NCBI GenBank assembly: GCA_963169695.1
Contig: CAUJDS010000073.1
Location: 1 to 35,946 of the forward strand
Direction of reading: 5' to 3'
Source: Bdellovibrionota bacterium
Lineage (GTDB): Bacteria; Bdellovibrionota; UBA1018; CAUJDS01
DNA length: 35,946 bases
Each line of letters opens with the position of its first letter. Positions within the stretch are counted from its first letter, which is position 1. Below, piece after piece: positions 3,859 to 34,264 of the stretch. The notes under the pieces are model-generated. The model saw only the letters and a program-made list of their open reading frames with translations. It ran no database searches and was not told where the DNA came from. The position numbers were made by a program, and so were the translations under genes.

Positions 3859-3961
3859 AGATTGGCCGGATGGTAGGGTAGATGGCGCGACAAGTCAAAT
3901 TCCTTTTAATTTATAAGCATCCAATATTTATATTTTCGAATGAGTCCTCATTAGCCTCAGC

Positions 3962-4729: not shown

Positions 4730-4732
4730 GGG

Positions 4733-17116: not shown

Positions 17117-17376
17117 AAGGCCCTCCAAGTAACCCAGACGGTGTGCGGCGGCAATTTTTCTGGTAACTTCAGCGCTTCTCCAGGCCCAAAGATCTAAATA
17201 AACGCGACAAGGCAACTTCCTTGGTAGGAGCAGTCCTAGTGGCCCAAAATGCAGCCGAGAAGTCGACCATTGCCCCTACCTAGAGTTTCTGCTTTTTGAA
17301 AATTCGAATTTTGATTTCTGAAATCAGAAATTTTGCTCATTTGTCCCCTTTTGCTTGCTCTCCTGTCGTCCTCGCT

Positions 17377-17745
17377 CATTTTGGCTTCGTGCCAAAATGG
17401 CCTGCACCGCAGGCACGCTGCGGTCGAGATTTTTGACATCCGTCAAAAATGGTGCCGAGGGCCGGACTTGAGCGACTTCAGTCGTTCGCTCGTGCTCACT
17501 CCTTGCGTCGCCAGCTACGTTGCTAGAAAAGTCTTCCGGACTTTTCTCCCTGCGCTAGATCGCTGTCGCGATCCATCGCAGGTCGCTCCTACGCGTTCAA
17601 GTCCGTCGCTACAAACACAAAGAGGGACGTAAATTGTGAGACAGGTCCGTAGTTCACACAACTGCTCGCTTGTTTTGCCATCCAGGCAAAACAGCCATGC
17701 ACAGCATGGCCGCTGCGCTATTGCAAAATGGACTCCTGTCCATTT
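17377..17745. repeat. Cluster of at least nine perfect stem-loops
   Basis: Hairpins with fully paired stems lie at 17377-17399 (9-bp stem, loop TTCGT), 17407-17423 (6), 17429-17450 (9, loop ATCC), 17470-17491 (6 outer pairs), 17526-17546 (8, loop TTCCG), 17558-17573 (6, loop TGTC), 17672-17692 (8, loop ATCCA), 17694-17710 (7, loop ACA) and 17726-17745 (8, loop TCCT). Stems differ in sequence, so this is not one repeat copied; most loops are 4-5 bases and pyrimidine-rich. The third hairpin ends at the first base of the 125-bp repeat. No T-run follows any of them, so they are not ordinary terminators. Confidence 0.85.
17450..17574 (+). repeat. Left copy of 125-bp direct repeat (probable attL)
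   Basis: Bases 17450-17574 match 35822-35946 without a mismatch; the bases just left of each copy differ (A and G). The match runs to the window edge, so 125 bp is a lower bound. The first 23 bases, read on the minus strand, are CTCAAGTCCGGCCCTCGGCACCA, which resembles the 3' end (T-loop, T-stem, acceptor, CCA) of a leucine tRNA; the rest of a tRNA is not present. I take it as the left junction of the mobile element. Confidence 0.8.
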
Positions 17746-18027
17746 CTGGTGCGCAGAACTGGACGACTTTCGAACTGCCTGCGTCATCTACTCTCAGAGT
17801 GCGGTTGCTTAGGCGCAATATCGAATCCTATCGAATATTGACACATTTTACGTCCACCGCTAATCTCGTTGCATAGGTTAGGCAGATACCTTGCGCCTGC
17901 GCACTAAAGCTTGCACTCGAGCACTGTCATTGAACGCACCGTTCTCTAAATCATATTAAACTTAACATCGCTCATCGATGTTTTGGAGCAGGCGACAAAG
18001 CGTTAGTGGGCAATATGTGAGGTTTAT

Positions 18028-18693
18028 ATGAAGAAGCCATTGGTTTCGCCGTCCTTTCTTAAGCAGAAAGCCAGACAACTAAAAAAAGAGAAATCGATAA
18101 GTCAGCATCAGGCGCTTGAAGAGGCATCAAAGATGCTAGGGTTTTCGAATTATCGAAACTATCTGAATTTATTGGAGTCCAACGCTCCGAAGCCCAAGCC
18201 AGCAACCGAAGAACAGATTGAAGCTTTGAGGTTAGATAAAGAAGATATTGCTTTGAAAAGAGCCCATTCCTTGATTGCCGAGACTGAAAAATCCAAGACT
18301 CAACTACATGAATTGCTAGAGAACCTGAAGGCAGTCGAAAACTCAGAAGCTGACGTTCAGGCATTTTGCGAAAAGAGCCCCGCACTTAATAAATACCTCG
18401 AGCTGAATTTCTTTAGCGATTTCTTACGAGATGAGGAATGCGAAATCGAAGATTTTGCACCTTACCACATAGCAAAGCTGGTCACTTTGAAGAATCTTGC
18501 GTTTAGATTTGAAGATGACGTGCTTTTCGTCGAAGGCGATTATGATCTGACACTCGAATTCGCCTTTGATTACGACAAAGATGATAAATCGGATACCTTC
18601 AAAGATCAGGAAATGTTCGGCTCATTTGAGCTAACAATTGATAAAAATCTGGAAATCAACTTCGAGAATCAAGACATTGGACACAATTGGTAG
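18028..18693 (+). CDS. Unknown protein with N-terminal mobile-element-type helical domain
   Basis: A 221-residue protein. The first 50 residues (LKQKARQLKKEKSISQHQAL, then GFSNYRNYLNLLE) resemble the short helical domain seen at the start of many plasmid- and phage-borne proteins, some annotated as glyoxalase-superfamily-related, which reads roughly as K..A..L+......S...AL...A...G+.NY..L. A coiled-coil-like middle part (about 65-120) and a very acidic C-terminal part (about 155-221) follow. Role unknown. Good ribosome-binding site (GAGG). It faces the defence operon, ending 11 bp from the last gene's stop. Confidence 0.6.
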   Translation: MKKPLVSPSFLKQKARQLKKEKSISQHQALEEASKMLGFSNYRNYLNLLESNAPKPKPATEEQIEALRLDKEDIALKRAHSLIAETEKSKTQLHELLENLKAVENSEADVQAFCEKSPALNKYLELNFFSDFLRDEECEIEDFAPYHIAKLVTLKNLAFRFEDDVLFVEGDYDLTLEFAFDYDKDDKSDTFKDQEMFGSFELTIDKNLEINFENQDIGHNW

Positions 18694-18704
18694 AAGATTT
18701 ATTG

Positions 18705-19568
18705 TTAGCTAATTAGGGTGCCAAACTTAAAAAGCGACGCATCCAACGGCGAGCGAGCTTTTGGATTCAACAAAATCTTTAAGTCTTTTCCTGAATCCAT
18801 CATGTCAACTAGATGTCTGGTAGATGTGAATACACCGCTGACGGAGGGATTATTCAATAATCCCTCCGTTGAAATTGATGCCTGTTGGCTCTTTTGAATC
18901 GACTTCTGTTCGGGAAAGACAACCTCTACGTCGTCATTCCTCTCAACCTTGTCGCCAAGATGAACAGAAACTTTAAATGCCATTGCTCCAACTCCCAATA
19001 ACGCCCGCACAGCTAGAGGTGGATACTGGTCAGCAAGGTCGGAGTCCCGCATTTCTCCCGTATTAATTGCGATGACCACTGCATCTTCAGGGGAAATTAT
19101 TTTCTGCTCGATATATCTTTCAATTTTTCTCGCTTTGTCTGCAAACGCGCTGGTTACACGAAGAACCATCTTATCGACAGGAAGTGTTCCAGCTTGCCCT
19201 ACTGGCGGACGTGTCACCTTGTTCTCCTTAGTACCGACTTTTACAGCAACCGCTTCGATCCACATTTTCTTACCATCAGGCAAAAGCACGCAAAAGTCTG
19301 GTCCTTCACCATTCACTTTCTGACCTTTGAATCCTGCGACCTTATAGAGTATCCAAGAAAGATACATCTCCCACCAACGCTGTTGGGGATTTTCAACTGC
19401 ATCCTGTTGAAAATGAGAATCCCCACAATATTGCCAGTGATGCTCAAGAAGTTTAGAGCAATAGTCGCGTACTTCTTGTCGATTAGAATGAGACTTATTG
19501 AAAGCGTAGACATCATTTTTCCCAGCCTTCTCTTCAAAGAAATTATTAGTTCTCTTTCCTTGGCTCAT
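18705..19568 (-). CDS. Possible PD-(D/E)XK-type nuclease, last gene of defence operon
   Basis: A 287-residue protein that I assign tentatively. Residues resembling a PD-(D/E)XK core are Glu67 in WWEMYLSW, GPDF at 89-92 and WIEAVAV at 103-109 (Glu105). The usual Lys of E-x-K is replaced by Val, with a Lys two to three residues later, so catalysis is uncertain. A following segment (MVLRVTSAFADKARKIERY, then VVIAIN) is reminiscent of uncharacterised proteins with PDF...IEAV text. Its ATG directly follows the stop of the HEPN gene (TGAATG), indicating coupled translation. Confidence 0.5.
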   Translation of the reverse strand: MSQGKRTNNFFEEKAGKNDVYAFNKSHSNRQEVRDYCSKLLEHHWQYCGDSHFQQDAVENPQQRWWEMYLSWILYKVAGFKGQKVNGEGPDFCVLLPDGKKMWIEAVAVKVGTKENKVTRPPVGQAGTLPVDKMVLRVTSAFADKARKIERYIEQKIISPEDAVVIAINTGEMRDSDLADQYPPLAVRALLGVGAMAFKVSVHLGDKVERNDDVEVVFPEQKSIQKSQQASISTEGLLNNPSVSGVFTSTRHLVDMMDSGKDLKILLNPKARSPLDASLFKFGTLIS

Positions 19569-20348
19569 TCACGAATCCTGTGGTTCATTTTTTAATTGTT
19601 CCAAATTTGGCTTTATCTTCCCCAAAATTCTGTGTGCTTGATAGTAGCCTGCTAAAGTCTTCGAGCGCTCGGTTTCTTCTGGAGCGAACCAAGACAGTGC
19701 CGAGCGAAATGACTCTATAAAAAAATGAAAATCGACGGTAGCCATCGCCTTATAGAAGTTGATGGGTTCGCCATAGTCTTCGTCTGCATACGCTCCATGT
19801 AAGATTCCATGGCGGTTGGTATTATCGGTATGCGGATACTTACTAGATTCAATATAAAGATGCTGATCCGCATACTCTTTGAATGAGTCCATCATCGAGA
19901 TGATTTCACCGACCGCTCCAATATTATATTTCTGCGCATCATCCTTACAGCTATCGGCAAGACCAATAAATATTTTGCGAGTGGATACTCGTTCACACTT
20001 AATTGAGCGACTCTTCGCCAAGTTGGTCCCGGCGCCTTCAAGAACTGGCATCAAACCAGTTACGGCAATATGATCCAGTCCTAAGAAGTGCGCGCGAACT
20101 GACTCCGCAATGATTTCTTTATATTCTTTTATGTACGGCACAACTGGATAACGACTAACCACCATGGCGGATATGTTCTCAGGCGAGTAAATCAGCGACA
20201 GCATAAACTCCAGATCTTTCTGAGTGAACGCACCGCCAGAGTCGATGATCTTCTTATACATCATGTTTAAAAAACCCATGGATATAAAGGGAGGAATAAA
20301 CCAACCGACACTATTAAAAGCTGTCTTAAAATGATTTAAGTCATGCAT
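19569..20348 (-). CDS. HEPN-type protein with RHGILH motif (candidate RNase)
   Basis: A 259-residue largely helical protein. HEPN RNases share an Rx4-6H motif in a helical bundle; here it is RHGILH at 179-184 in the context NRHGILHG, followed by DYGEPINFYKAMATVDFHF. The region LGLDHIAVTGLMPVLEG upstream also fits this family. HEPN domains are common in toxins and abortive-infection proteins, where they cleave tRNA or mRNA; that this one does so is inference. It starts within the end of the DUF2971 gene (8-bp overlap) and its stop touches the next ATG. Confidence 0.6.
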   Translation of the reverse strand: MHDLNHFKTAFNSVGWFIPPFISMGFLNMMYKKIIDSGGAFTQKDLEFMLSLIYSPENISAMVVSRYPVVPYIKEYKEIIAESVRAHFLGLDHIAVTGLMPVLEGAGTNLAKSRSIKCERVSTRKIFIGLADSCKDDAQKYNIGAVGEIISMMDSFKEYADQHLYIESSKYPHTDNTNRHGILHGAYADEDYGEPINFYKAMATVDFHFFIESFRSALSWFAPEETERSKTLAGYYQAHRILGKIKPNLEQLKNEPQDS

Positions 20349-21252
20349 ACGGTTTTGGCTTCAACTTGTAGCGGTGAGGGTCAGGAATCATCTCGTAGAT
20401 TTTAGCTTCTGGATTCCTTTTTATTGCGAGATCAACAATCGAGTCCTTAGTTTCTTTTGGCATCTTGCAACCTAAGAATACAGAAACCAGCTCGTCGTCA
20501 TGATATGTAAGGCAGTGGTTTTTCTTTCCCTCGAATAAATTAACTAAGATCGGCATATAGAGTCGGATTTCCTCCTCATACGCCCATTCTAAACTTTTTG
20601 TTTTTGTTATTTTCTTTGTGTATTCAGCCAGAATATCTTCAGTTTTTCGAAACATCGACTTTATCAAAAAGTCTTTATGGGATTCGTATAGATAAGGTCT
20701 GTTGTTGGTGTACTCGACATCTTCAGCCAAAATCAACATTGAGTCCTTCTCTACATTTGGCGAGAACTCCAACACTGCACCTTGATGCTTTTCTGCGTAA
20801 TGTGCCCATAAAAGATAATTATCAAACCGCTTAGAAGCACAAAATATGCCCGATAGCTCAAATGCCGTTTTAATATGTGCTAAAGTTTCAGCTCCACTTG
20901 CACGCAGGCTCTCTTCATCCCAAATGTTTTTAGCAGAAAACTCTTTTCTTAAGTTCGCCTTGTATGACTCTGATGCGTTTGAAAGAGCTGATCTAACTGC
21001 AACAAATTTATTAGATTGTGCACTGCCGTTACCTTCAGGCAAGACTTCGTCTGAAGTAGACAATGCTATGAATTCATCAAGGTGCGCTTCTAGGTCAAAG
21101 GCGTCATAACCAAAAAGAGTTTGGATAGAAATGTCGAAGGGGTCGTTGAAATATAGAGGCGAGGAGAAAAGAAGAGTTCCGTTTTGCAAGATTGCCGTGG
21201 CACCAGCTATATCAACATACTTAAAAAGTTGTTTTTTCGCTGTTGCCGACAA
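20341..21252 (-). CDS. DUF2971 family protein
   Basis: A 303-residue protein with the DUF2971 marks: LFKYVDIAGATAILQNGTL and SPLYFNDPFD (FNDPFD at 35-40), FCASKRFDNYLLWAHYAEKH with LLWAHYA at 147-153, and WAYEEEIR at 223-230. The family's biochemical role is unsettled; it recurs in bacterial defence loci and some members have been suggested to have an ADP-ribosyltransferase-like fold. It begins 1 bp after the stop of the small gene before it and overlaps the next gene by 8 bp. Confidence 0.8.
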   Translation of the reverse strand: MSATAKKQLFKYVDIAGATAILQNGTLLFSSPLYFNDPFDISIQTLFGYDAFDLEAHLDEFIALSTSDEVLPEGNGSAQSNKFVAVRSALSNASESYKANLRKEFSAKNIWDEESLRASGAETLAHIKTAFELSGIFCASKRFDNYLLWAHYAEKHQGAVLEFSPNVEKDSMLILAEDVEYTNNRPYLYESHKDFLIKSMFRKTEDILAEYTKKITKTKSLEWAYEEEIRLYMPILVNLFEGKKNHCLTYHDDELVSVFLGCKMPKETKDSIVDLAIKRNPEAKIYEMIPDPHRYKLKPKPYA

Positions 21253-21253
21253 A

Positions 21254-21481
21254 TTAAAGGTCCTTCAGGTCAGGATAGTCCTCTAGAACTTCTTGAGGAA
21301 CTTTAAGTCCACGATTGAGTGCGATCTCAACTGAGCTTTTGTGCTTAGAGAAATTTCCCGTGACAGTCGAATTGCCTCTGGGCGCTCCGAACTTAGCCTC
21401 ATACTCAGTCTTGGTCATTTGCCAAGGCTGTTTCTCTATTTTTCCAGGTGAGCGCTCTTGCTCATTTGTTATGTCATCCAT
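21254..21481 (-). CDS. Small protein of 75 residues in the defence operon
   Basis: Starts 8 bp after the res stop and ends 1 bp before the DUF2971 start. The central text PWQMTKTEYEAKFGAP and the C-terminal HKSSVEIALNRGLKVPQEVL with DYPDL resemble a small helical segment found fused to or next to phage and plasmid DNA-metabolism proteins (typically ending VP.EVL.DYPDL). It may be a protein-protein or nucleic-acid adaptor. Function unknown. Tight packing on both sides makes it a real gene. Confidence 0.6.
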   Translation of the reverse strand: MDDITNEQERSPGKIEKQPWQMTKTEYEAKFGAPRGNSTVTGNFSKHKSSVEIALNRGLKVPQEVLEDYPDLKDL

Positions 21482-21489
21482 GTTACCCC

Positions 21490-24171
21490 TTAGTCTTTAT
21501 ACTCTCTAAAGTTCTCTACCATTTGTTTGAAGTTTTTCATCTCGTACTTTTCAAACGATTCTTGATCGACAAAAACGAAGTCGTATTTTATTTTCTTTTG
21601 TACGCGATTTATATCTTCGCACCATTGCTTTAATCGGAACATTTTTAAAGGAACGTCCAAATCCTCTAAGCCCTTTGTTTCGACAATGTAAACTTCGTTA
21701 TTAGCGACTTTTACGAAAAAGTCCGGGTAATAATTAGAAATGTCGCCATCCGCATTCACATAGTCGATTTTGAAGTGAACCGCCAAATAGTTCTTAGAGT
21801 AAGAAATCACATCTTCGCATTCTTCAAGGAAGGTCGAAAACTCAAGCTCTAGGTGACTATCACCGATGACCTTATTAAAAACGCTTTTCTTGGGAACTAT
21901 AAACCCTTGTTCCTTAGCGATAAATGGACGGGTATTTCGTAACTTAATGTAGTCACGAATTTCTGCATCACCCTTATCCTGAACAGTAAGATCATTGATT
22001 TTCTTTTTAAAAGTTTCAATGATGGTTCGCGTAGCTTCAACTTCCGAAAGATTTCTAACAGTATTCGGGGTGTCTAATTCAATTTCCTTGCCAAAAAGTT
22101 GGCTCGATATGAACTCTTTAACTTTTCCATAAAGGATGGCGTATCCGCTGACTAAACGCAGATCTTTCATTATTGATTGCGTAAAATAGCCTGCAACACT
22201 GTTAAAATCGATTAAGCCAGATGCATCAAGAACAGTTGTATGGGTAATGTTCCCGGTTGTGATGTCTTTAAAAACAATTTCTCTCTGCTCTTCGTCCGAA
22301 AAGTCCTGATATCCGACCGGCTTGTGTCCGAACTTCGTCACATCGAGATTATTTAGATTTTTATACTCTCGATAAATCCGTGGCGTCATAATTGGAATTT
22401 CAATATCTAAGTTGTCTAAATCTTTTTTCTTGTTTTCGCTGTCGATTTCAACAACCAGTGGAGTCCGGGGTTGAGAACCGCTTCCCATAGGACCACGCTC
22501 AAGCTCAACGCCTTCCTGCTGAATGGACTCAACGAAGTCCATAAAAGCTGGTGTTCCAACTATACTTACGAACTCTTGAATATTGCCAGGATACATTTTT
22601 CGCAAGCCACGACCTAAAGCTTGCTCTGGGAGAATATTATTCTGAGCCGTGAAAGCTCGTAATCCGACAATAGTGGTGACATTGCGAACGTCCCATCCTT
22701 CCCGTAAAACCATAACAGAAATAATTGCTTTATACGGACTCTCAGCACTGTCGATAGTGTTTGCTTGCTCCCGCAGTCTGTCGAGCTCCTCCTTGTTTTT
22801 TCCAGAACTGGCTTCTGATATTTCGCCGTTATTCTTGGTATGAATGACTAAGACTGCGCCCTTTAAATCGGCATAGGTATTTTCTAAATATTCCGCCAGA
22901 TCATCACAGTTCTTTGTATCATCGGTCATGATGAAGAGGATGGCTTTTTTGTCGAGTTTTAAGTGCTCTTCATAAGCTTTGCGCCATTCAATCACTCCGA
23001 GATTGATATAGTCTGAATACTTCTCTGTAAATTTAGAACTTTTCTTTTCAGTGAGTTTGGCACGACTAGGACCGTCTGGCACAAGAGGATGCTTTACTAC
23101 GTTCTGCTTAATTGCTTCAACTAAAGGGTAGTCAGAAATTGTTTGGACGAAAATTGCGCCATTCGCGTGCTTTGGAGTTGCAGTTACGTCGAGTTGTAAC
23201 GAAAGAGCCGTTCCTTTTTGCTGTAAGCGGTTATGGATATCTTGGATAGATTTAAACCAAGCATTCTGTGGATCATGAACGTGATGTGCCTCATCGTTAA
23301 TAACCATTAACTCTTCGATATCTCGAACGACTTTACTTAAATCAAGATTTGAATCCGTCGTCGCATTCGCCGGCTTCGGACCCAAAAAATAATCCATAGA
23401 GTTTTCATCATTGGGCGATGCGTGGATATCATTGCCCGAATAAACTCTATGAATATTAGTGAGAAAAACATTACCAACAGGGCTGGTTACATGAACATCA
23501 TCTTGGATATGAAGATCCATCTGGAAATCTGATCTCCACTCCCGTCCATCGAAACCATCGTGAGGCAAAACCGGATCGTCTTTTAGAAAAATACGAAGCC
23601 CTTGAAAGTCTTTGTAGATGCGATCAAGCACGATTATATTGGGCGCTATCACCAAAAAATTGCGAGCCATCGGGGAATTCTCTTCATAGAGTTTATGAAA
23701 AAAGCTCCAGGCTAATGCAAGGCTGATTACTTTGGTCTTCCCGGCTCCAGTTGCCATTTTAACGACGAATCGCTTCCACGTTTCATCAAACATATTGGCA
23801 GAAACAGCACCCGAATTATCAAATCGTATTAAATCATATTTATCTTTTACTTTCATCACGTCGACTAGGTAAATAATCGTCTCTAAAGCTTCACGTTGAG
23901 AGAAAAAGTATTTAAACTCTGAAGAGGAATCAGCTTTCTGGACTAAATGGGGCGTTTTGAACCACCAATTTAACAAGCTTTTACTAGTTTGGGTCGCGCT
24001 TTCGTATCCACTATCACGAAACTTTTTTACTTGCTTTCGAAGCTCTGGGACTAATGGAGGCAACAACTTTTCAAAACTCGTATTTCGCAAAGTTTCATCA
24101 GCAGGAAACCAACGGATAGTTGGGTCTAGAATAGCATAAGGTGACTCTGGGAAGTTTGGATGCAATGCCAT
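21490..24171 (-). CDS. res: Type III restriction enzyme, Res subunit
   Basis: ATP-dependent helicase-nuclease subunit of a type III restriction-modification system. An SF2 helicase core shows motif I TGAGKT (141-146), the DEAH-type motif NDEAHH (293-297), LDVTATP, and motif VI QALGRGLRK near 515. A PD-(D/E)XK nuclease is at the C-terminal end: PDFF near 814, ETKG near 826-829. Length 893 is close to the usual 900-1000. It works with the Mod subunit on unmodified recognition sites. The TAATG junction with mod (1-bp overlap) shows coupling. All catalytic motifs look intact. Confidence 0.92.
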   Translation of the reverse strand: MALHPNFPESPYAILDPTIRWFPADETLRNTSFEKLLPPLVPELRKQVKKFRDSGYESATQTSKSLLNWWFKTPHLVQKADSSSEFKYFFSQREALETIIYLVDVMKVKDKYDLIRFDNSGAVSANMFDETWKRFVVKMATGAGKTKVISLALAWSFFHKLYEENSPMARNFLVIAPNIIVLDRIYKDFQGLRIFLKDDPVLPHDGFDGREWRSDFQMDLHIQDDVHVTSPVGNVFLTNIHRVYSGNDIHASPNDENSMDYFLGPKPANATTDSNLDLSKVVRDIEELMVINDEAHHVHDPQNAWFKSIQDIHNRLQQKGTALSLQLDVTATPKHANGAIFVQTISDYPLVEAIKQNVVKHPLVPDGPSRAKLTEKKSSKFTEKYSDYINLGVIEWRKAYEEHLKLDKKAILFIMTDDTKNCDDLAEYLENTYADLKGAVLVIHTKNNGEISEASSGKNKEELDRLREQANTIDSAESPYKAIISVMVLREGWDVRNVTTIVGLRAFTAQNNILPEQALGRGLRKMYPGNIQEFVSIVGTPAFMDFVESIQQEGVELERGPMGSGSQPRTPLVVEIDSENKKKDLDNLDIEIPIMTPRIYREYKNLNNLDVTKFGHKPVGYQDFSDEEQREIVFKDITTGNITHTTVLDASGLIDFNSVAGYFTQSIMKDLRLVSGYAILYGKVKEFISSQLFGKEIELDTPNTVRNLSEVEATRTIIETFKKKINDLTVQDKGDAEIRDYIKLRNTRPFIAKEQGFIVPKKSVFNKVIGDSHLELEFSTFLEECEDVISYSKNYLAVHFKIDYVNADGDISNYYPDFFVKVANNEVYIVETKGLEDLDVPLKMFRLKQWCEDINRVQKKIKYDFVFVDQESFEKYEMKNFKQMVENFREYKD

Positions 24172-26291
24172 TACTTTTTCCCTTTCCCTGTTAGCTCAAT
24201 TACAGACATCGTATCGTTTCCAAAAATATCGACAACCTTGATGGCAACCTTTTGAGTTTTTGATTCGAATTCATGAAAGGGGCTCATCAATTCCAAAGAA
24301 CGATCCTTCTTGGTGCGGAACGATTGCCACTCGTTTTCAAAAATATAATCACCAGTCCAAACCTCTTCCCACTGATCCGAGGTTTCGCTCTTGGTCCGTA
24401 TGATCTCTTTTTTGCTACCATAGTTAAAATCCACCGACCAATAGTCAACCCAATCACTCCACTTATTGGTTAACTTTTCTCGAGTTATTTTTCCTTTTGC
24501 ATCCTTAGATATTTTTACGATTTGCCCTTGTTCCACGACTACTTTGCTACCTTTGTTCTTCAGATTTTCAGCAACGTCATTCGTCGCATCTTGGTTGTAG
24601 AACACCGAGAAGTCTTTTAGCTCAATGGCAACACTACTTTTTTTAAAATGGGATTTAGCCTCGATATAAGAAACATCATGAAAAGATACCTGATTTTTTT
24701 CTACAGCTCGTTTATCAAAAACATCAGCTGGTATATACTTGGGCGAAATATCAATTCCCTTGCGTTTTGCTTCCTCAAGAGAATCAGGAAAGAGACCCAT
24801 TTCAAATTCGAACCCAAGAATGTCAATTTTAGTAATTTTCTTTTGACGGCACTCAGAAATAATCTCCTCAACGAAAAGTCTAGAAACCGGCAAATTTACA
24901 GGACCAATCGCAACCAGGCGACCATTGCGCTTACCTTGGAATATTTTAAATCCCGTTGTTTTTTCTGCTTTGTATGCCTTTAAGATTAGTTCAATAAATG
25001 CAGATTCTTTTTCTTCTAGCTGTTTAGCTTTTTGCTCTTCGCGCAGGTCGGGGTTTGTTCCAACATAAAGTTGGCGTTCATACTTTCCTAAATTCAGAAT
25101 TTCAAAAGCCCTAAAATCTTTCCCTGCTTTTTTTAGTTCTCGTTGTACACCGATCATCCTCTTGCGAGTTGTATGAATTGCATACTTCCCTAGATCTGCG
25201 ACAATCCATTTGCGACCCATTTTTTCAGCCATTGCCGATACTGATCCAGAACCGCAGAAGAAATCAGCAACGACATCTCCTTCGTTTGTTGTGCTTTCAA
25301 TAATTCTACGAACCAAATGCTCAGGCTTCTGTGTTGGGTAAAATAGATTCTCAGTTTTATCCGCTGGTTGAAGCATCGACAAGCGCCACACGTTATCCAC
25401 CACGCGTTCTTCTCTTGTCTGGTACATTACGTTGCCAGCTTCATCTCGCGCATTAATCATTTTTCCATCAACTTTTTTTCGCACGAGTTGCTTAACTGGA
25501 GTATCGCGTTTCTCCTCAAGAGGATTAAACGTATAGTTTGAATTTTTATTTTTCACATACCAAAAAATAGTATCAGTGGATCTGGGGAAAACACCTTTTC
25601 GAGTGTCTGGCATTTTATTATAATAGTACCAATAGATCTCATTTCTAAAATTATCACGTCCAAATATCTCGTCTAATATCAAGCGAACATAAGGGCTCAC
25701 TCTCCAGTCGCAATGGAGAAAAATACTTCCATCATCAGTCAGAAGGTCTCGAATTAGATGAATGCGCTCGTAAATCATTGCATTAAAAGAATCAGTGCCT
25801 CGCCCCCAAGTATCCCGATAGGCAATTTCTTCTAATATACTCGGCTTTTTAGTTAGAGTCTCATCTCCGACTTCAATATCCATGGAAAAATCAGCGCCGA
25901 CATCAAATGGAGGATCAATGTAAATGAGCTTTAGCCCACCTTGCTTATCGAGCTCATCCCTCAACGGACCGTTTTTAAGTGAAGAGAGGATCAGTTTGTT
26001 GTCGCCCCAAATTAGCTTATTGGTCCAACCGCGTATCTGGCGACCACGATCATCTATATCAAAAAGACTTTGTTGGAGTTTTGTATCGGCTTCTTCACGG
26101 GGTTCGTCGACCTGTTCAATGGTTTGAAATGGCAGAACGATGTTACAAACATCCTTATTTTTCCCGTTCCAAACAAGTTCGACTTCGCGCTTATCTTCAA
26201 AAAGTAAAAACCTATACTTATCTGGAAGTGGTTTTCCCGCTTCGATAAAGCGAGCGACTTCTTGTTGTTCAATCTCAGTTAGTTTTGCCAT
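24171..26291 (-). CDS. mod: Type III DNA adenine methyltransferase, Mod subunit
   Basis: S-adenosylmethionine-dependent N6-adenine methyltransferase that marks and recognises the host site. Motif IV DPPF is at 126-129 (IYIDPPFDVG) and the AdoMet-binding motif ADFFCGSGS is near 343, the beta-class order in which DPPY precedes FxGxG. The stretch before it, with TQKPEHLVRRIIE, is typical of Mod. The target recognition region lies between and after these motifs. Length 706 is slightly longer than the roughly 640 of EcoP15I Mod. Its start overlaps the HTH gene by 13 bp. Confidence 0.93.
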   Translation of the reverse strand: MAKLTEIEQQEVARFIEAGKPLPDKYRFLLFEDKREVELVWNGKNKDVCNIVLPFQTIEQVDEPREEADTKLQQSLFDIDDRGRQIRGWTNKLIWGDNKLILSSLKNGPLRDELDKQGGLKLIYIDPPFDVGADFSMDIEVGDETLTKKPSILEEIAYRDTWGRGTDSFNAMIYERIHLIRDLLTDDGSIFLHCDWRVSPYVRLILDEIFGRDNFRNEIYWYYYNKMPDTRKGVFPRSTDTIFWYVKNKNSNYTFNPLEEKRDTPVKQLVRKKVDGKMINARDEAGNVMYQTREERVVDNVWRLSMLQPADKTENLFYPTQKPEHLVRRIIESTTNEGDVVADFFCGSGSVSAMAEKMGRKWIVADLGKYAIHTTRKRMIGVQRELKKAGKDFRAFEILNLGKYERQLYVGTNPDLREEQKAKQLEEKESAFIELILKAYKAEKTTGFKIFQGKRNGRLVAIGPVNLPVSRLFVEEIISECRQKKITKIDILGFEFEMGLFPDSLEEAKRKGIDISPKYIPADVFDKRAVEKNQVSFHDVSYIEAKSHFKKSSVAIELKDFSVFYNQDATNDVAENLKNKGSKVVVEQGQIVKISKDAKGKITREKLTNKWSDWVDYWSVDFNYGSKKEIIRTKSETSDQWEEVWTGDYIFENEWQSFRTKKDRSLELMSPFHEFESKTQKVAIKVVDIFGNDTMSVIELTGKGKK

Positions 26292-26500
26292 ACAGTCCCT
26301 TGTTTATCGTCTTCGATTTTTGAAATTGCACCGCCATCCATGACCCATTGGTCAACTTCGCGGGCTTTGAATTTCCAAAGTCGCCCCACGCGATGAGCCG
26401 GAATTTTCTTTTTTTCTAGCCAGCGATAAACAGTCTCTTTGGATACTCCCAAGTGAGCACCAATTTCTTCGACCGATAGCCAACGCTCCGATTCACCCAC
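26279..26500 (-). CDS. Excisionase-like / MerR-type helix-turn-helix protein
   Basis: A 73-residue protein with one helix-turn-helix of the excisionase group: WLSVEEIGAHLGVSKETVYR, then WLEKKKIPAHRVGRLWKFK. Such proteins act as recombination-directionality factors or as transcriptional regulators. Here it is the first gene of the restriction operon, with GTG start at 26500 and GGAGG about 8 bp before it. It may control the operon, or help the serine recombinase excise the island; the sequence alone cannot separate these. Confidence 0.8.
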   Translation of the reverse strand: MGESERWLSVEEIGAHLGVSKETVYRWLEKKKIPAHRVGRLWKFKAREVDQWVMDGGAISKIEDDKQGTVWQN

Positions 26501-26947
26501 GGCAATGCCTCCAAAAATTATCTTGTGCAGTTTACGATAAAATTAAATCAACCGAGGTTCCTTTTGACAAGCTAATACAATGAAAGCCTACGAAGAGACT
26601 TCCATTGGCAATGAACTATTACTGCCTGCGTTATGTGGTTTGATGTCTAATTAGGCAGATGCCCCAATCCTCTTAATTTACCAATCCGGCTTGATTCTTG
26701 TCTCCCGTTTTAAGCCACGCAGGAGCACCAAACCGGAGCACTTTCATCTTTTTACCGGACACTTCCATTCGAGCCCGGCATCCTAGTTATGTGCGCTGGA
26801 AAGGAATGAAAAGATTAGCACCACGAGAACAGGTCCAAGTATTCAGGCAATTCAGCCTCAAGACTCGGACGAATTGCCTGAGAAATCAGGTTTAACTGCG
26901 GGATCGATCTTTAGATTCCGAAGAAACTCGTGAATAGGACCAACAGG
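26501..26947. other. Intergenic control region between defence operon and XRE operon
   Basis: These 447 bases separate the divergent minus-strand defence operon and the plus-strand XRE operon. A frame at 26698-26895 is open but has no ribosome-binding site or domain and is not counted. The stretch includes an 11-bp inverted repeat (26843-26881), copies of two short sequences also found at 17774 and 17878, and presumably the promoters of both operons. No promoter could be fixed by its -35/-10 spacing. Confidence 0.6.
26843..26881. promoter_or_regulatory. 11-bp inverted repeat upstream of the XRE gene
   Basis: TCAGGCAATTC (26843-26853) and GAATTGCCTGA (26871-26881) form a perfect inverted repeat with a 17-bp spacer. 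It ends 66 bp before the XRE regulator start. The size and position fit a two-half-site operator for the XRE protein; binding is not shown. Confidence 0.45.
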
Positions 26948-27265
26948 ATGGAAGACACAAACGACTTTGGAACAAGATTAGAGAGACTGTGCCAAGAGAA
27001 AGGCATCACACCAAGTGAACTTGCTCGGCGTACATCATTGTCTCGAAAATCAATTTTCGAGTGGGTGGGAAAATCAGGGCGAATTCCTCGTGATCCACTT
27101 CATTTAAAAAAGTTGTGTGAGTTCTTCAAGGTTTCACCCGCATGGCTACTATGGGGAGAAGAAGAGAAAGTCAGCACTATCGACTCGCTGATTTCCAAAA
27201 CTGATCTCCATGTTGGAATGTATGAAATCTCGATTAAAAAAATCGATCCAAAGTCCAAAAAATGA
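26948..27265 (+). CDS. XRE-family helix-turn-helix regulator
   Basis: A 105-residue protein with a Cro/C1-type domain at the N terminus: ERLCQEKGITPSELARRTSL, then SRKSIFEWVGKSGRIPRDP and the LCEFFKVSPAWLLWG tail of the HTH. The rest has no recognised domain. ATG 26948 has TAGGA about 8 bp upstream; a GTG at 26930 is less likely. First of four close genes (stop overlaps or nearly meets the next start). Likely repressor of its own operon and perhaps of the divergent defence operon, through the inverted repeat upstream. Confidence 0.8.
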   Translation: MEDTNDFGTRLERLCQEKGITPSELARRTSLSRKSIFEWVGKSGRIPRDPLHLKKLCEFFKVSPAWLLWGEEEKVSTIDSLISKTDLHVGMYEISIKKIDPKSKK

Positions 27266-27279
27266 TGAGGGATACAAAT

Positions 27280-27468
27280 ATGGGTACGGTGGCACGTTAC
27301 ATTTTTAGTTCGTCTACAGATGCAGAGCATTGCATGGAACAACTTTGGCGAAGGATGTCTGGTGGATTTTCCCGAGGGGGAAATGAAATCTACATCGAAG
27401 TTTCATGTAGTGATCTGCAACTAGCTTCGCAAATTTGCCGGGCTTGTGGCGGACGTTTAGGAGGATAA
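27280..27468 (+). CDS. Small protein of unknown function
   Basis: A 62-residue reading frame (ATG 27280; a start at 27262 that overlaps the XRE stop by ATGA is also possible). The sequence SSTDAEHCMEQLW...RGGNEIYIEV..ICRACGG contains three Cys and a basic patch but no known domain. It ends 1 bp before the GTG of the lipoprotein gene. Its position in a tight gene row supports it; function unknown. Confidence 0.5.
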   Translation: MGTVARYIFSSSTDAEHCMEQLWRRMSGGFSRGGNEIYIEVSCSDLQLASQICRACGGRLGG

Positions 27469-27469
27469 A

Positions 27470-28513
27470 GTGAATACGATAAAAAATATGATCGTGATAG
27501 TTATTCTAAGCCTTGGTCTCAGTGCTTGCGGTGGCGGAAACGGAGGAAGCTCTACGTCTTTGCCGTCCGATGGGGGAACTAATCCAGGCGGTGGAAACGG
27601 CGGAGGTGGATCAACTGGCGGTGGCAATGGAACGGCTTCGTACTATGGTTTCAATAGTGCGAATAGCATTGTCTCTAACGCCTTACCCCCATTCGTTTCT
27701 GGAGAGCAATTTGTAGTAGATAACGAGGTTGCGATCATAGTTTCAGATTTGGACAACAGAACTGCCGACTATATGATTTACGAACCGATCTGCCTTTCTG
27801 GTGTTTTAAGTTATGACTACAATGCGGTCTTAATGAAGGGCGATCCAACGGCACCTTCTCGAGTTCGCATCTCGGCAAGTTCATCCAGCACAACAATCAC
27901 AGAATACACTGAGCTTCAATCGGGCGCTGGGTATGTTGATAAAACCACAGAGACCAATACAGGCGTCTGTAACAACGGAGAATTTTATTCCTCCGTGAGC
28001 CAGTGGGTCGTATTTCAGAATGGTCGATCTATTTTGCTGAAAGATATGGATAACAATATCTATTTCGGATTCAGAAATCAGCTTGTTGATAAATCCCTGC
28101 TTTTAGCAAAGCAGTATAAAGTTTATCACCAGTTGAACAATGGCGCAGTTGACGTCGCAAACAAACTGAATAGCTGGAGTTCAGCTTCGGCAAGTGTTGT
28201 TAATCTTGACGCATCTTCGTCGCCATCAAATTCGGCATTTGGATTTAGCTCACCGCATACGACTGCCAAAGGATTCGCAAGCACGACACGAGGTTCGCAC
28301 TATACCATTCATGGCAACTTTTCTAGAATTTATGACAATCAAACTGCGACGGTTCCTATGATGGGAATCACGGCAACTCTCGCAGGAAAGAACATATCGA
28401 TTCATAATGCCGTTCACCGCACTTGTGGGTCTGGCGACGTATATTCTCACAACGGACAAAGCGTCTGCGACACTGTTGGCTCTGGAGCTGTCAGCTTCTA
28501 TTTCGAACAGTAA
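27470..28513 (+). CDS. Lipoprotein with glycine-rich linker
   Basis: A 347-residue protein with lipobox LSAC after a hydrophobic stretch (KNMIVIVILSLGLSAC); Cys is followed by a Gly/Ser-rich linker of about 40 residues, then a beta-rich domain with several Cys (PICLSGV, GVCNNGE, RTCGSGD, QSVCDTV) that may pair. No named family. AGGAGG lies 5 bp before GTG 27470. The island encodes its own surface-exposed candidate lipoprotein next to a membrane protein gene; an entry-exclusion or receptor-masking role is possible but unproven. Confidence 0.7.
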   Translation: MNTIKNMIVIVILSLGLSACGGGNGGSSTSLPSDGGTNPGGGNGGGGSTGGGNGTASYYGFNSANSIVSNALPPFVSGEQFVVDNEVAIIVSDLDNRTADYMIYEPICLSGVLSYDYNAVLMKGDPTAPSRVRISASSSSTTITEYTELQSGAGYVDKTTETNTGVCNNGEFYSSVSQWVVFQNGRSILLKDMDNNIYFGFRNQLVDKSLLLAKQYKVYHQLNNGAVDVANKLNSWSSASASVVNLDASSSPSNSAFGFSSPHTTAKGFASTTRGSHYTIHGNFSRIYDNQTATVPMMGITATLAGKNISIHNAVHRTCGSGDVYSHNGQSVCDTVGSGAVSFYFEQ

Positions 28514-28530
28514 TGAAAGGAGGCAGTTTT

Positions 28531-29124
28531 ATGTCGGCATCAATATATAAAATTGCCTCTTCTATTTTTACGTTGATCGTAGTTGGCAAGGTGCTTTTCT
28601 TGATCTTTAAAAATTTGTCACCACTAGTGTCGAAAGCAACCTCAATAATGAAGCGAAGGATTAACAAATCCTTCGAGGTCTCAGAAGGTGAAAAAAACAA
28701 AATATGGTTCGCCGATTATCAGCGGAAAGAAAAAGAAAAGCGAGATCTTTCCGAACGTGAGCATTATCGGTACCAAGGCACATATGTAAACCTATCGACC
28801 GTGCAAAGAGACCGAACAACATTGTTTGAAGACCGCTGGAAGAATTGGGAGTTCAATAAGGATAACTGCCAACTAAGAACTCCTGGGGACCATCACTCCC
28901 AGTGCCTAAAGATGTTTGGCGAGATGTCTTACGCGCGAAAAGCAATCATCGCAAAAGACCCAGCATTCTGGAGCCAAGAGAAAGAACGCTTTTGGATTAA
29001 GATTTGCCATCCCCAGATTAGAAAAGTCGACCTTCGTGGTCTAAGTCTTTTTGATACTAGACAGAGAATTTTGGCAGAGGAAGAATTTAATCAGGACGAT
29101 GGCGAGGATCGTTCATCTGCTTAG
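28531..29124 (+). CDS. Single-pass membrane protein with charged cytoplasmic part
   Basis: A 197-residue protein. One N-terminal membrane helix (IASSIFTLIVVGKVLFLIF) is followed by a long basic, helical and acidic region rich in Lys, Glu and Arg, ending EDRSSA. AGGAGG lies 7 bp before ATG 28531; ATG 28513, overlapping the lipoprotein stop as TAATG, is less likely. No known family. It overlaps by 38 bp the convergent membrane protein gene that ends at 29087. Confidence 0.65.
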   Translation: MSASIYKIASSIFTLIVVGKVLFLIFKNLSPLVSKATSIMKRRINKSFEVSEGEKNKIWFADYQRKEKEKRDLSEREHYRYQGTYVNLSTVQRDRTTLFEDRWKNWEFNKDNCQLRTPGDHHSQCLKMFGEMSYARKAIIAKDPAFWSQEKERFWIKICHPQIRKVDLRGLSLFDTRQRILAEEEFNQDDGEDRSSA

Positions 29125-29389
29125 TCCTTTCCTCAGCATCCTTAATACGTTTTCTCACGCGGTATGCCTCGTATTTTTCTTTTAAGTCTTGGTTTTGGTA
29201 TCGAGCTAAAAGAAAAAACCAAGAAACCACTATATAAGAGCCGGCAAACCCATAAAAATTGAACCATAATTCTGCGGTTCCAAAATATCCGAGCCATTGC
29301 GCCAATGGCTTAATAAATACAATAAACAAGGCTGATAGCCATATCCTTACAAAGCCTTGATAAACGAATTCGTAGCCCCTCTGCTTCAT
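29087..29389 (-). CDS. Small membrane protein of unknown function
   Basis: A 100-residue protein with about three hydrophobic segments (WLSALFIVFIKPLAQWLG, FNFYGFAGSYIVVSWFFLLA) and a basic, Lys/Glu/Arg-rich C-terminal tail. It converges on the preceding membrane-protein gene and overlaps it by 38 bp. No family recognised. Might be a bona fide gene given its clean hydrophobic pattern; no clear ribosome-binding site seen. Confidence 0.5.
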   Translation of the reverse strand: MKQRGYEFVYQGFVRIWLSALFIVFIKPLAQWLGYFGTAELWFNFYGFAGSYIVVSWFFLLARYQNQDLKEKYEAYRVRKRIKDAEERTKQMNDPRHRPD

Positions 29390-29448
29390 TCTTTATGCTA
29401 AATGGATCAATGGGTGGATCATTCCATTTAGATCGCTCTGGAGGCTTT

Positions 29449-29808
29449 ATGGAGCATTTACCGCCATTTTTTCTTAATAAGGACGTCGTAGGACCAAATT
29501 CACTACGGCTCTTTTTATTATTTTATCAATCTTCAAAAGCATACCCTCAGCGAAGATCCCATCGATTCACCAGAGACGATCTGATGAAGATCACGCATCT
29601 TTCCTACAATTCATGCCAGGCAGGAATTGCTGAACTAATACTGCTTAAAATTGTTATTTTAGATCCATTTGATATTTCAAAGACACACTTCATTGTGAAT
29701 AAGAGTGAGGAATACAATTGGGAGGAACTGCGAAAACGGCAGGGTTTAAAAATCGAAGGGGTACCAAATTCTGCTGAGGGTTCTCCGGAGAGTGAGGATT
29801 CTGACTAG
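29449..29808 (+). CDS. Winged-helix-like DNA-binding protein
   Basis: A 119-residue protein whose first 70 residues read as a wHTH: LPPFFLNKDVVGPNSLRLFL, then FTRDDLMKITHLSYNSCQAGI and an LLKIVIL strand. This is the shape of N-terminal domains of replication-type initiators and replisome organisers, and it resembles the first part of the 30306 gene product. TGGAGG lies 4 bp before ATG 29449; a frame start at 29395 is unlikely. The tail is acidic and disordered. Role in replication or control is inferred only. Confidence 0.55.
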   Translation: MEHLPPFFLNKDVVGPNSLRLFLLFYQSSKAYPQRRSHRFTRDDLMKITHLSYNSCQAGIAELILLKIVILDPFDISKTHFIVNKSEEYNWEELRKRQGLKIEGVPNSAEGSPESEDSD

Positions 29809-29887
29809 GGTTTTATATATAAACTTTGGATTTTTAAGGGCTCGGCAAATTTTGATGATCTTCCATTTAGCTTCTGGAGGATCAGTT

Positions 29888-30124
29888 ATGAAAAATCAAA
29901 TTAACAAGTTCCGCTTTCACCAAGTGCCTGAGTTACCTAGTCAAGCCTGCTTTCTCATTACTAGAAACGATGAGGAACAACCTGTCGCCTTTATTGAGTT
30001 CGCTGACGGAAATTATGAGGTCTCAAGAATGCGAGAGCTTACGTTGACTGACCACCTTCTCATTCTTCAAGAAGCTGAGAGATACCGAGATTCATTTTTC
30101 AATCCTGAATACTGGAATATTTAA
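29888..30124 (+). CDS. Small protein of 78 residues
   Basis: Starts at ATG 29888 with GGAGG about 7 bp upstream; the longer frame from 29792 overlaps the preceding gene and is not preferred. The sequence shows a mixed alpha/beta pattern with LITRNDEEQPVAFIEFADGN and a charged C-terminal helix LLILQEAERYRDSFFNP, but no known family. It follows the winged-helix gene on the same strand. Confidence 0.5.
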   Translation: MKNQINKFRFHQVPELPSQACFLITRNDEEQPVAFIEFADGNYEVSRMRELTLTDHLLILQEAERYRDSFFNPEYWNI

Positions 30125-30136
30125 TTTATCAGTTTG

Positions 30137-30169
30137 TTTGGCATAAGCCCATCAGGGGCGTTTGCCAAA
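30137..30169. other. Hairpin after the 29888 gene
   Basis: TTTGGCA (30137-30143) pairs with TGCCAAA (30163-30169), with an inner GCCC/GGGC pair (30147-30150 and 30156-30159). There is no T-run behind it. It sits 12 bp after a stop codon, so it may be a weak terminator or an mRNA-stabilising structure. Confidence 0.4.
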
Positions 30170-30305
30170 GAACTCCATTATTAATTGTTATTCTAACTAC
30201 TTCCGTTCAGCGTGGGCACAAGACCACTGGGGTGGGTAAAAACAGAGATCAGAATCGACTTTTCTTTTTCTCCATTTATTTATCAACCCATGGAGGTGGG
30301 TACAA

Positions 30306-31190
30306 ATGAATGAGAAAAAAGATAACAAACTTGCCTTTATTTTTACACCGATCCCGTTCGTATTATTGAGAGCCTACGACCTGTTAACAAAAAATGATCG
30401 CGATCTTCTGGTTCAGATCGCGTCCTTTGGTCCAAACGGTTGCTTCTTTAGTGTGGACAAGATTACTGAGAAAATTTTGGTCTGCGGGGAGCCCGCATTC
30501 TATCGTTCTGTCTACAAACTCAAGCATCTAAAGCTTATTAAGTTCAAACGAGGCAACAGGAAAATGTCTAACCGATATTTCTTCGAGACGGACCCCAGAA
30601 ATTGGCGACTTACCGAAGACTTGCATAAAAAAATTCAGGAAGATGCTGGGAAGTTAGGGATCTCAGATCTTAAATTCAATAACGAACCTTTTCCGAACGT
30701 ATTCGGATTCGTCACTTCTTTCAATATCTGTTATCCCAGTTATAAAATCGAGAATTCAAAAAAGATTAAGAATTCTCAGGAAAATTACAGACAGCCTGTA
30801 GTCGAAGATGATTCTTATCTCCAGATCACGAAATGGCAAAACAGAATTGAACAAATGGAGCGAAGTAAAACCACTTTCTTAATCATCAAAAATTATAACT
30901 ATTTTAGCCAAAATATTACCGCCTACAAAGCTTGGAAAGATGGAATGTTGAATGAATATTCAGCAACCGAAACCGAAAAAAGATATATTAAGGCGTTAAT
31001 TGATAAGTTTGAGTTAATTGCCAAAAATCCAAAAAGTGAATTCGAAAAACAATGTTTTGTGTTGATGGAAGCCCTATTGAATGATGGGAAGTCTGGATTT
31101 GAAATCGAAGGCGCTCTACTGAAGTTAAAAAACCGCTACGATCAGGAAACTACATTACAGGCGCCTGTAGACGGAGATCCCGAGAAATAA
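30306..31190 (+). CDS. Winged-helix replication-type protein
   Basis: A 294-residue protein. The N-terminal region (FIFTPIPFVLLRAYDLLTKN, DRDLLVQIASFGPNGCFFSV, then VYKLKHLKLIKFKRG) looks like the winged-helix domain of phage or plasmid replication initiators and replisome organisers. The rest is Lys/Asn-rich, helical and of unknown structure, with an acidic end. GGAGGTGGG lies a few bases before ATG 30306. Its coding sequence includes two TACAG/CTGTA dyads (30786-30800, 31156-31169). Replication function is likely by analogy but unproven. Confidence 0.5.
   Translation: MNEKKDNKLAFIFTPIPFVLLRAYDLLTKNDRDLLVQIASFGPNGCFFSVDKITEKILVCGEPAFYRSVYKLKHLKLIKFKRGNRKMSNRYFFETDPRNWRLTEDLHKKIQEDAGKLGISDLKFNNEPFPNVFGFVTSFNICYPSYKIENSKKIKNSQENYRQPVVEDDSYLQITKWQNRIEQMERSKTTFLIIKNYNYFSQNITAYKAWKDGMLNEYSATETEKRYIKALIDKFELIAKNPKSEFEKQCFVLMEALLNDGKSGFEIEGALLKLKNRYDQETTLQAPVDGDPEK
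30786..30800. promoter_or_regulatory. TACAG-N5-CTGTA dyad, copy 1
   Basis: TACAG ACAGC CTGTA inside the replication-type gene. Its exact reverse complement (TACAGGCTGTCTGTA) occurs at 32891-32905, and a related 14-bp palindrome at 31156-31169. Possibly binding sites of one protein. Confidence 0.35.
31156..31169. promoter_or_regulatory. TACAG-N4-CTGTA palindrome, copy 2
   Basis: TACAGGCGCCTGTA, a perfect 14-bp palindrome in the last codons of the replication-type gene. Shares arms with the sites at 30786 and 32891. Confidence 0.3.
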
Positions 31191-31193
31191 AAA

Positions 31194-31216
31194 AGGCAGT
31201 GCCGTCGCATCTGCCT
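31194..31216 (-). terminator. Rho-independent terminator for minus-strand operon
   Basis: AGGCAG (31194-31199) pairs with CTGCCT (31211-31216) and, read on the minus strand, is followed by a run of T (from bases 31188-31194, which are As on plus). It lies 25 bp beyond the stop of the 31242 gene, in the right place to end that operon. On the plus strand the T-run is absent. Confidence 0.6.
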
Positions 31217-31241
31217 CTCTTAGCCGGAGTTCTCATGAAAC

Positions 31242-31895
31242 CTAGGTTTTGGACGATTGGATTATGTATTGAAAAATCATGGCATCACTTGGTCTAACAT
31301 TAGCTGTGAGTATCAGCTTTTCCCCGCGCGGAAACTTCAGAATATCCCCTTGGGTGACAAAAAGCTTAAATGTCTTCGGTGCGATTGTCATAGCCATGCA
31401 AACTTGCACAAATGAAGCCTTACAGCACATCAGATCTATGTCGTTTATAAATATATGCAAAGGTTTAGCAAGTTTGTATGAACCAATAAACCCCAGAATC
31501 AGAGCGCCGAAGCCAACGCAAGGATCATTGACAGAGACATCGTCTCTATCCCTGAAGTCTTCTTCTCTTAATTGATAAAGCTCTCCAACTAGCTTTGCTA
31601 TCGGGTTGGGTGTAAAATGCTGAGCTTTTTGAACCTTGCCAAACTCGCGCGTCGTTCTCTCGAAAACTGGACCCAGGTGATCCATAAAGGGATTTTCATT
31701 AACCACTAGAAAATACGCGTGAAAAAATGGTAGCGAAGAAGCTTGGTATTCCAACAGTTCCTTCGTCGCATTATGGGCGTAGACTGCACACAGGAGATCC
31801 AGTAAAATCTCCCATGCCTTTCTGTATTCAAGATTGTTAACTTTTTTAAAATTACAAAATTCGATGTACATATCGGGAGTTTCTGAGGCTTTCAT
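31242..31895 (-). CDS. N6-adenine methylase-like protein lacking motif IV
   Basis: A 217-residue protein with the N-terminal AdoMet half of HsdM-type methylases: QHFTPNPIAKLVGEL at 92-106, DPCVGFGA (motif I) at 124-131, and IFINDIDLMCCKAS with NDID at 151-154. After TQGDILKFPRGEKLILTANV, where NPP(Y/F) would stand, it reads RPSD and ends, so no catalytic motif IV is present. Many plasmid and phage proteins have this short form; whether it methylates DNA is doubtful. It starts 1 bp after the preceding gene's stop and ends in a terminator. Confidence 0.65.
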   Translation of the reverse strand: MKASETPDMYIEFCNFKKVNNLEYRKAWEILLDLLCAVYAHNATKELLEYQASSLPFFHAYFLVVNENPFMDHLGPVFERTTREFGKVQKAQHFTPNPIAKLVGELYQLREEDFRDRDDVSVNDPCVGFGALILGFIGSYKLAKPLHIFINDIDLMCCKASFVQVCMAMTIAPKTFKLFVTQGDILKFPRGEKLILTANVRPSDAMIFQYIIQSSKT

Positions 31896-31896
31896 T

Positions 31897-32742: not shown

Positions 32743-32763
32743 ACAGCCTCCTTTTGGTTTTGC

Positions 32764-32779
32764 CGAACACCACCGTTCG
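32764..32779. promoter_or_regulatory. CGAAC-N6-GTTCG dyad upstream of the DUF3102-like gene
   Basis: CGAAC (32764-32768) and GTTCG (32775-32779) form an inverted repeat close to the start codon of the 31897 gene, in the place of a repressor site. Five-bp arms could be chance. Confidence 0.35.
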
Positions 32780-32890
32780 ACTTAAAACCAGTATGAAGGC
32801 TGGACAAAAAGTTACGTGAAGACCGCGAATGCATCTATTTCGGAAGACATTCGCAATCCGTATTCTTGGATTTTCACAATTTATGGGGAT

Positions 32891-32905
32891 TACAGGCTGT
32901 CTGTA
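32891..32905. promoter_or_regulatory. TACAG-N5-CTGTA dyad, copy 3
   Basis: TACAGGCTGTCTGTA, the reverse complement of the site at 30786-30800, lying 149 bp upstream of the DUF3102-like gene, near the end of the 32923 gene. A possible operator of the island's maintenance genes. Confidence 0.35.
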
Positions 32906-32922
32906 AAAGGATTCAAAATCAG

Positions 32923-33813: not shown

Positions 33814-33865
33814 ACCTAAATATTAGATGAATGGAGTTTGGCGGTCATTTAATTTCTTTTATAGC

Positions 33866-33899
33866 CCGCGAAAGCCTTCAAAAAAATCATCTTTCGCGG
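33866..33899. promoter_or_regulatory. 9-bp inverted repeat in the divergent control region
   Basis: CCGCGAAAG (33866-33874) and CTTTCGCGG (33891-33899), spacer 16 bp, between the divergent 32923 and 34004 genes. The sequence GCGGTCATT(T/C)AA occurs directly at 33841 and again at 33896, overlapping the right arm. Likely a binding site for a regulator or part of a recombination or replication site. Confidence 0.45.
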
Positions 33900-34003
33900 T
33901 CATTCAACTTATTGCGCTACCAGCCCATATCCTGACTTAGGAGATCAGACGATTTCCTAGGTTAGGGACACCCCGATAAACGAAATCCCTAAAGGTGAGT
34001 TTT

Positions 34004-34261: not shown

Positions 34262-34264
34262 TAT

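Follow-up and report, generated by a model that had tools for sequence, protein, structure and literature searches.

A hairpin cluster in a Bdellovibrionota genome is probably an array of tRNA-linked repeats from a phylum-wide family

The window analyzed here, a stretch of 35,946 nucleotides, is contig C73 of the 2.79-Mb, 82-contig assembly of a Bdellovibrionota bacterium. It contains a compact cluster of hairpins and, starting within this cluster, an island framed by two copies of a direct repeat (Table 1). On a 400-bp scale, the hairpin density of the whole window peaks at the cluster. Eight perfect hairpins with stems of at least 6 bp were counted there, against a mean of 0.51 and a maximum of 3 in 500 dinucleotide shuffles. 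Seven have stems of at least 7 bp (mean of 0.13 and maximum of 2 in 1000 shuffles), and four have stems of at least 9 bp (mean of 0.006 in 500 shuffles). RNA folding of positions 17340-17790 (451 nt) gave a z of −7.1, and none of 100 shuffles folded equally well. These counts, far above those of shuffled sequence, bear out the original prediction of a dense cluster of distinct hairpins and refute chance at equal composition as their source.

Table 1. Coordinates of the features of the window
Feature	Position	Strand	Basis or remark
Hairpin cluster	17377-17745	read on minus strand	perfect hairpins, loop 3-8
Trailer module, three hairpins (17429-17450, 17406-17424, 17377-17399), abutting the CCA	17349..17449	-	85%-identical relative
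Complete tRNA-linked repeat unit (inverted arm, core, tail)	17450..17609	-	best R1 match in the genome, 81.8 bits
Tail TCAAGTCCGGCCCTCGGCACCA, 22-nt 3' end of tRNA-Leu(UAA) with CCA	17450..17471	-	sequence match
Third stem region, GCGAC ... GTCGC	17472..17524	-	consensus fold of 13 full units
Hairpin 2, variable perfect 9-bp stem, loop CGGAA (NGGAN)	17525..17547	-	hairpin scan, alignment
Hairpin 1, loop GACA (GNNA), conserved G:U pair and A.G mismatch	17550..17581	-	alignment, pair counts
Inverted arm GGACTTGAACGC (minus strand), reverse complement of tRNA T-loop/T-stem	17593..17609	-	sequence and family-wide cognate match
Degenerate second unit-like module, three perfect hairpins	17671..17745	-	hairpin scan, sequence anatomy
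Left copy of 125-bp direct repeat (tail and most of core)	17450..17574		identical copies
Island between the repeat copies (type III restriction-modification, candidate defense genes, recombinase)	17575..35821		left limit approximate
Large serine recombinase, frame running into right copy	34265..35944	+	PF00239, PF07508
Right copy of 125-bp direct repeat, ending at contig end	35822..35946		identical copies

Several details of that prediction needed adjustment. Its figure of at least nine hairpins is exceeded once imperfect stems are included, the perfect ones stopping at eight. The similar pyrimidine-rich loops that it described account for most of the loops read on the plus strand (TTCGT, GCACG, ATCC, TTCCG, TGTC, ATCCA, ACA, and TCCT), not for all of them. 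Four of these contain TCC, which is GGA on the minus strand, the strand of the unit itself. The statement that no hairpin is a copy of another holds for single hairpins, yet they are members of recognizable repeat units. CRISPR, which had been discounted, is indeed without support, and no direct repeats were found inside the cluster. Known RNA families were likewise rejected as its identity, no Rfam family reaching the gathering threshold in the window. What had been missed appears, from the sequence, to be a tRNA-linked repeat array on the minus strand, in which a tRNA 3' end recurs in direct as well as inverted orientation. We favor this reading, in which the cluster is an array resembling the tRNA-linked repeats (TLRs) of Escherichia coli and consists of one complete unit plus relatives, with a probability of about 0.6.

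In the complete unit, the inverted arm, which is the reverse complement of the tRNA T-arm and 3' end, and the tail, a direct copy running from T-loop to CCA, enclose a folded core that measures about 120 nt and has three stems. Over its whole length the tail agrees (100%) with the 3' end of a relative's tRNA-Leu(taa), and the inverted arm pairs with the tail over approximately 9 bp. The trailer module matches the covariance model of the core weakly, and its 85%-identical counterpart in the same genome lies directly 3' of a tRNA-Gln gene (C13:41083).

This model is R1. In an alignment of 17 cores (A1), 99.7% of the cells are paired and 13 of the 23 pairs have changed on both sides. The covariation score is 0.556, versus 0.183 for shuffled and at most 0.133 for slid alignments. 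Core matches were obtained in 39 of 369 Bdellovibrionota genomes, belonging to 28 genera, with up to 13 per genome, so that the cluster does have counterparts in relatives. A closed multi-branch fold is common to 13 full units; it is made of an arm:tail closing helix and three stems, and 25 of its 38 consensus pairs have changed on both sides. Among 84,980 species genomes, the pattern of the first hairpin matched only records of Bdellovibrionales, Bacteriovoracaceae, and one Deltaproteobacteria metagenome-assembled genome. It had no match in viral contigs, nor was any match obtained in plasmid and phage collections, and an origin from phages, viruses, or plasmids was rejected on these grounds. 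Across the 28 genera, loop sequences and loop positions are kept and stems are not. The loop of hairpin 1 is GNA or GNNA, GGA is present in 55 of 71 hairpin 2 loops while eight of the nine stem pairs vary, and the third hairpin loop is often GGA as well. The distribution of the units is patchy, and internal deletions and lost tails are seen.

These data are strong evidence for the reality and identity of a phylum-wide family of tRNA- and transfer-messenger RNA (tmRNA)-linked folded repeats. It is highly improbable that the cluster arose by chance or as an artefact of assembly. The second 125-bp copy does end at the contig end, and in two further contigs of the same genome, C58 and C82, the break likewise falls within a unit. 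However, shuffled sequence gives far fewer hairpins, and the family is conserved in many independent assemblies. Moreover, the contig-end overlaps measure 125 and 72 bp, which does not correspond to one fixed k-mer overlap.

The link to tRNA genes is evident from both position and sequence. A tRNA gene lies upstream on the same strand within 1.5 kb for 47 of 69 units. For 45 of them it is at most 400 bp away, at a median distance of 83 bp and with 20 anticodons represented. The longest match of the tail averages 14.8 nt with the cognate tRNA versus 5.6 nt with non-cognate tRNAs, and that of the inverted arm averages 11.4 versus 5.3 nt. Tail matches of at least 12 nt were found in 26 of the 45 units, compared with 0.3% for non-cognate tRNAs. 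Many tails are 21 to 22 nt long and others have decayed. Three units lie 3' of tmRNA (one in L104, two in L095), as does one in G097. The remaining 19 of 69 were not placed beside either kind of gene; many of these lie at the end of a contig or are separated from the tRNA by an island, and a few are unexplained. A strict terminator-like site is present in 2 of 35 spacers between tRNA and unit, and imperfect ones in several. At one locus (L150, G313:C29), the 3' half of a tRNA-Leu directly precedes the unit, with an entire tRNA-Leu(CAA) gene about 4.2 kb further upstream; displacement by an insertion in the anticodon loop would give such an arrangement.

The 125-bp repeat of the window begins exactly at the CCA end of tRNA-Leu. 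Since the right copy runs into the contig end, its length is a lower bound. The 3' end of tRNA-Leu(UAA) occurs in the assembly only as the two tails and no intact gene was found there, which indicates that the gene probably lies just past the end of the contig. The island, with its serine recombinase, would have been inserted into a unit at the CCA, so that a unit copy now lies on either side. Its type III restriction-modification pair consists of Mod (24171-26291) and Res (21490-24171). Neighboring genes match the PADLOC candidates PDC-S31 and, weakly, PD-T7-1/PD-T7-5, and the region that they form with the pair (18705-26291) is a candidate defense island.

The other serine recombinase of this genome (on C58) also borders a unit, at the junction of C58 and C82. 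These contigs (G000; positions 1-69 of C58 and 4-76 of C82, loci L043 and L081) start in the same unit with a 72-bp overlap and are therefore probably adjacent. A large serine recombinase was found next to a unit in one further case, near G035:C17, and is absent in most. The domain PF07508 is missing from 7 of the 20 genomes with units that were examined, and where such genes do occur, few lie close to a unit. On this basis the serine recombinase was rejected as a general mover of the units. The tyrosine integrase was rejected too; it is present in all 20 genomes and rarely adjacent to a unit (one case, G009:C70). No enzyme that moves the units was found. The original prediction placed the island's repeat inside the hairpin cluster, where it does lie, and called the cluster an integration site. 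The latter is apt in that the repeat is there, but not as a description of its main role, given the unit-bearing genomes that lack the large serine recombinase.

The same observations bear on whether the unit is a folded single-stranded DNA recombination site akin to the attC sites of integrons, in which arm and tail would rebuild the tRNA attachment site, with the core apical, and cargo elements would dock. We consider this unlikely. The stems are nearly free of wobble pairs, the arms match the target site, the repeat boundary coincides with the CCA, both serine recombinases of the genome border units, and cargo separates the tRNA from the unit in G099 (2.4 kb) and in the window (18.2 kb). 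As in attC, structure is kept over sequence and inverted arms surround a variable structured center. Against this, most units have neither cargo, as the short median distance to the tRNA shows, nor a nearby recombinase; PF07508 is missing from 7 of the 20 genomes, and tyrosine integrases are rarely adjacent. In contrast to integrons, the site is a tRNA 3' end, and no integron integrase, cassette array, or attC boxes were identified.

The spread of tRNA-linked units between target genes is partly shown by three genomes of one genus (G097, G098, and G099). Their cores at tRNA-His, tRNA-Thr, tRNA-Val, and tmRNA are 82 to 98% identical in pairwise matches, and the inverted arm and tail switch at the T-loop to fit each target. 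The tmRNA gene of G098 has no unit, and those of G097 and G099 have one. At tRNA-His, the unit is complete in G097, lacks hairpins 1 and 2 in G098, and has been displaced by the cargo in G099. Near-identical cores, target-switched arms, and the tmRNA gene without a unit point to a core that spreads and whose ends come from the target. The inverted arm of L066 is 26 nt long and extends past the CCA into the flank, which points to an event at the level of DNA. Copying of the core between tRNA genes may proceed by recombination at the T-loop (TTCGA), which is conserved and self-complementary and which we infer as the crossover point because arms and core meet there. The 3' end of the new target would then flank the core on both sides, inverted on one and direct on the other. 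Only tentatively can this be extended to a picture of the units as mobile elements without genes, each of which reaches a new tRNA or tmRNA gene by capping a fold-back of that gene's 3' end. The core would insert at the T-loop and gain both copies, so that it always matches its gene.

Two unusual arrangements were observed among the units. In L148 (G099:C252, positions 2470-5060), the cargo of about 2.4 kb between tRNA-His and the unit includes a gene for a 548-amino-acid SEC-C-motif protein. Exact tail copies of 21 nt, along with similar sequence downstream of them, border this cargo, and the unit may form the distal end of a small element. In L034 (G056:C119, unit near 4831-4905) and also L017, a dispersed copy of the tRNA-Trp unit lies away from any tRNA. 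It has the look of a circular permutation whose two ends, each CCTGG, fall in the tail, as would result from the re-insertion of a circle.

Whether the units act as RNA or as DNA was approached through the types of base pair. On the model-fitted alignment, G:U pairs outnumber A:C pairs by 91 to 2, and 50 of the 91 come from the one conserved pair of hairpin 1. A symmetric search of hairpins 2 and 3 gave four G:T and three A:C in about 900 pairs, that is, almost pure Watson-Crick pairing. Since wobble pairs are nearly absent there, the excess of G:U was not counted as proof of RNA, and this strand test was dropped. Stems of such purity would be unusual for selection at the RNA level and are expected from palindrome correction in DNA. 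The selection for structure that had been suggested for the cluster agrees with pairing that is kept while sequence varies. It is likely, yet unproven as selection, because template switching that corrects palindromes also yields paired changes. Some selection is suggested by the conserved loops, whose constancy where stems vary favors selection on a folded strand, either RNA or single-stranded DNA.

One folded strand, in the sense of the tRNA, may be maintained, most simply as read-through RNA from the tRNA. The GGA loops could then serve as a protein contact, with CsrA as a candidate. Multiple hairpins with GGA in the loop, the feature that marks the CsrB/RsmZ type, are present in the units. 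All 20 unit-bearing genomes examined contain csrA, which is permissive, CsrA being common anyway. In favor of RNA are the conserved G:U pair of hairpin 1, the small number of spacers with a strict terminator-like site, and the fact that some E. coli TLRs are transcribed and processed; most of the latter are not predicted to bind CsrA (PMC8144298). A Bdellovibrio RNA-seq paper makes no mention of tRNA. The units could also be a selfish or neutral gene-less repeat, copied between tRNA genes, with hairpins kept perfect by template-switch correction and not by selection. This would accommodate the patchy distribution, the internal deletions and lost tails, and the near-perfect Watson-Crick stems, but it is quite unlikely in view of the conserved multi-branch fold and of loops whose sequences and positions, unlike the stems, are conserved over 28 genera. 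The unit may thus be an RNA trailer (possibly CsrA-binding), a recombination site, or a selfish repeat.

Among known systems, the family matches the TLRs of E. coli in anatomy. These have been known since 1978, number 22 at ten loci, are mostly without known function, and end in an 18- to 19-nt copy of the 3' end of the upstream gene (PMC8144298). The comparison covered rtT/RttR of tyrT-tyrV (Rfam RF00391), argQ/argZ, and RrA/RrB/RrF of the rrn operons (PMC8144298). The repeats of both groups lie directly downstream of a tRNA or rRNA gene on the same strand, are hairpin rich and often in tandem, and end in an 18- to 22-nt copy of the 3' end of that gene. The family thus shows two of the features of the class, the location and the 3' identity over 18 to 19 nt. 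The tyrT/tyrV repeats also carry an inverted arm (GGGGAAGGAT ... ATCCTTCCCC), as do those of argQ/argZ in degenerate form, and RrB, which has hairpins with GAA and GGA loops, binds CsrA in vitro (PMC8144298). In contrast to the E. coli repeats, the Bdellovibrionota units belong to another phylum, have many more target genes, including tmRNA, and have a conserved NGGAN loop hairpin and inverted arms of up to 26 nt. The likeness seems to be one of anatomy, without detectable sequence homology. R1 detected nothing in E. coli, including the tyrT repeats (best E of 0.65), and RF00391 gave four matches in E. coli and none in nine unit-bearing loci or in the window; homology of rtT to the R1 family is therefore without support in either direction. 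Short inverted T-arm copies (GGATTTGA and GATTCGA) lie about 50 to 55 nt downstream of the E. coli genes metY (L160) and lysV (L159), where there is no unit, and may be due to chance.

Genomic islands that target tRNA or tmRNA genes, such as the Dehalococcoides ssrA islands with serine recombinases and crossover in the T-loop (PMC3146451), resemble the window's island in their direct repeat, which covers about 20 nt of the tRNA or tmRNA 3' end from the T-loop onward, and in the serine recombinase near one end. They differ from the typical unit, which is gene-less and has a folded core, common to different targets, and an inverted arm. REP/BIME elements (Y1/RAYT transposases) are, like the units, short dispersed hairpin repeats with a conserved fold, whereas the units are tRNA linked, their arms are derived from the target, and their stem sequences are mostly not conserved. 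No such repeats outside enterobacteria were found in the literature searched, which mostly did not cover subscription journals.

The units thus form a large set in another phylum, unconnected to the TLRs of E. coli, with 20 tRNA anticodons and tmRNA as targets and with target-matched arms. For DNA after tRNA genes that has so far been unlabelled, R1 provides a covariance model. A warning also follows, since the units are places where islands and contig breaks occur. Should the units indeed spread by capping their targets, the E. coli TLRs would be related to them in mechanism. With cores that are nearly identical from gene to gene, and with presence and absence between relatives, the way in which the repeats move, and any action as RNA, become directly testable in a host group of mostly predatory bacteria.
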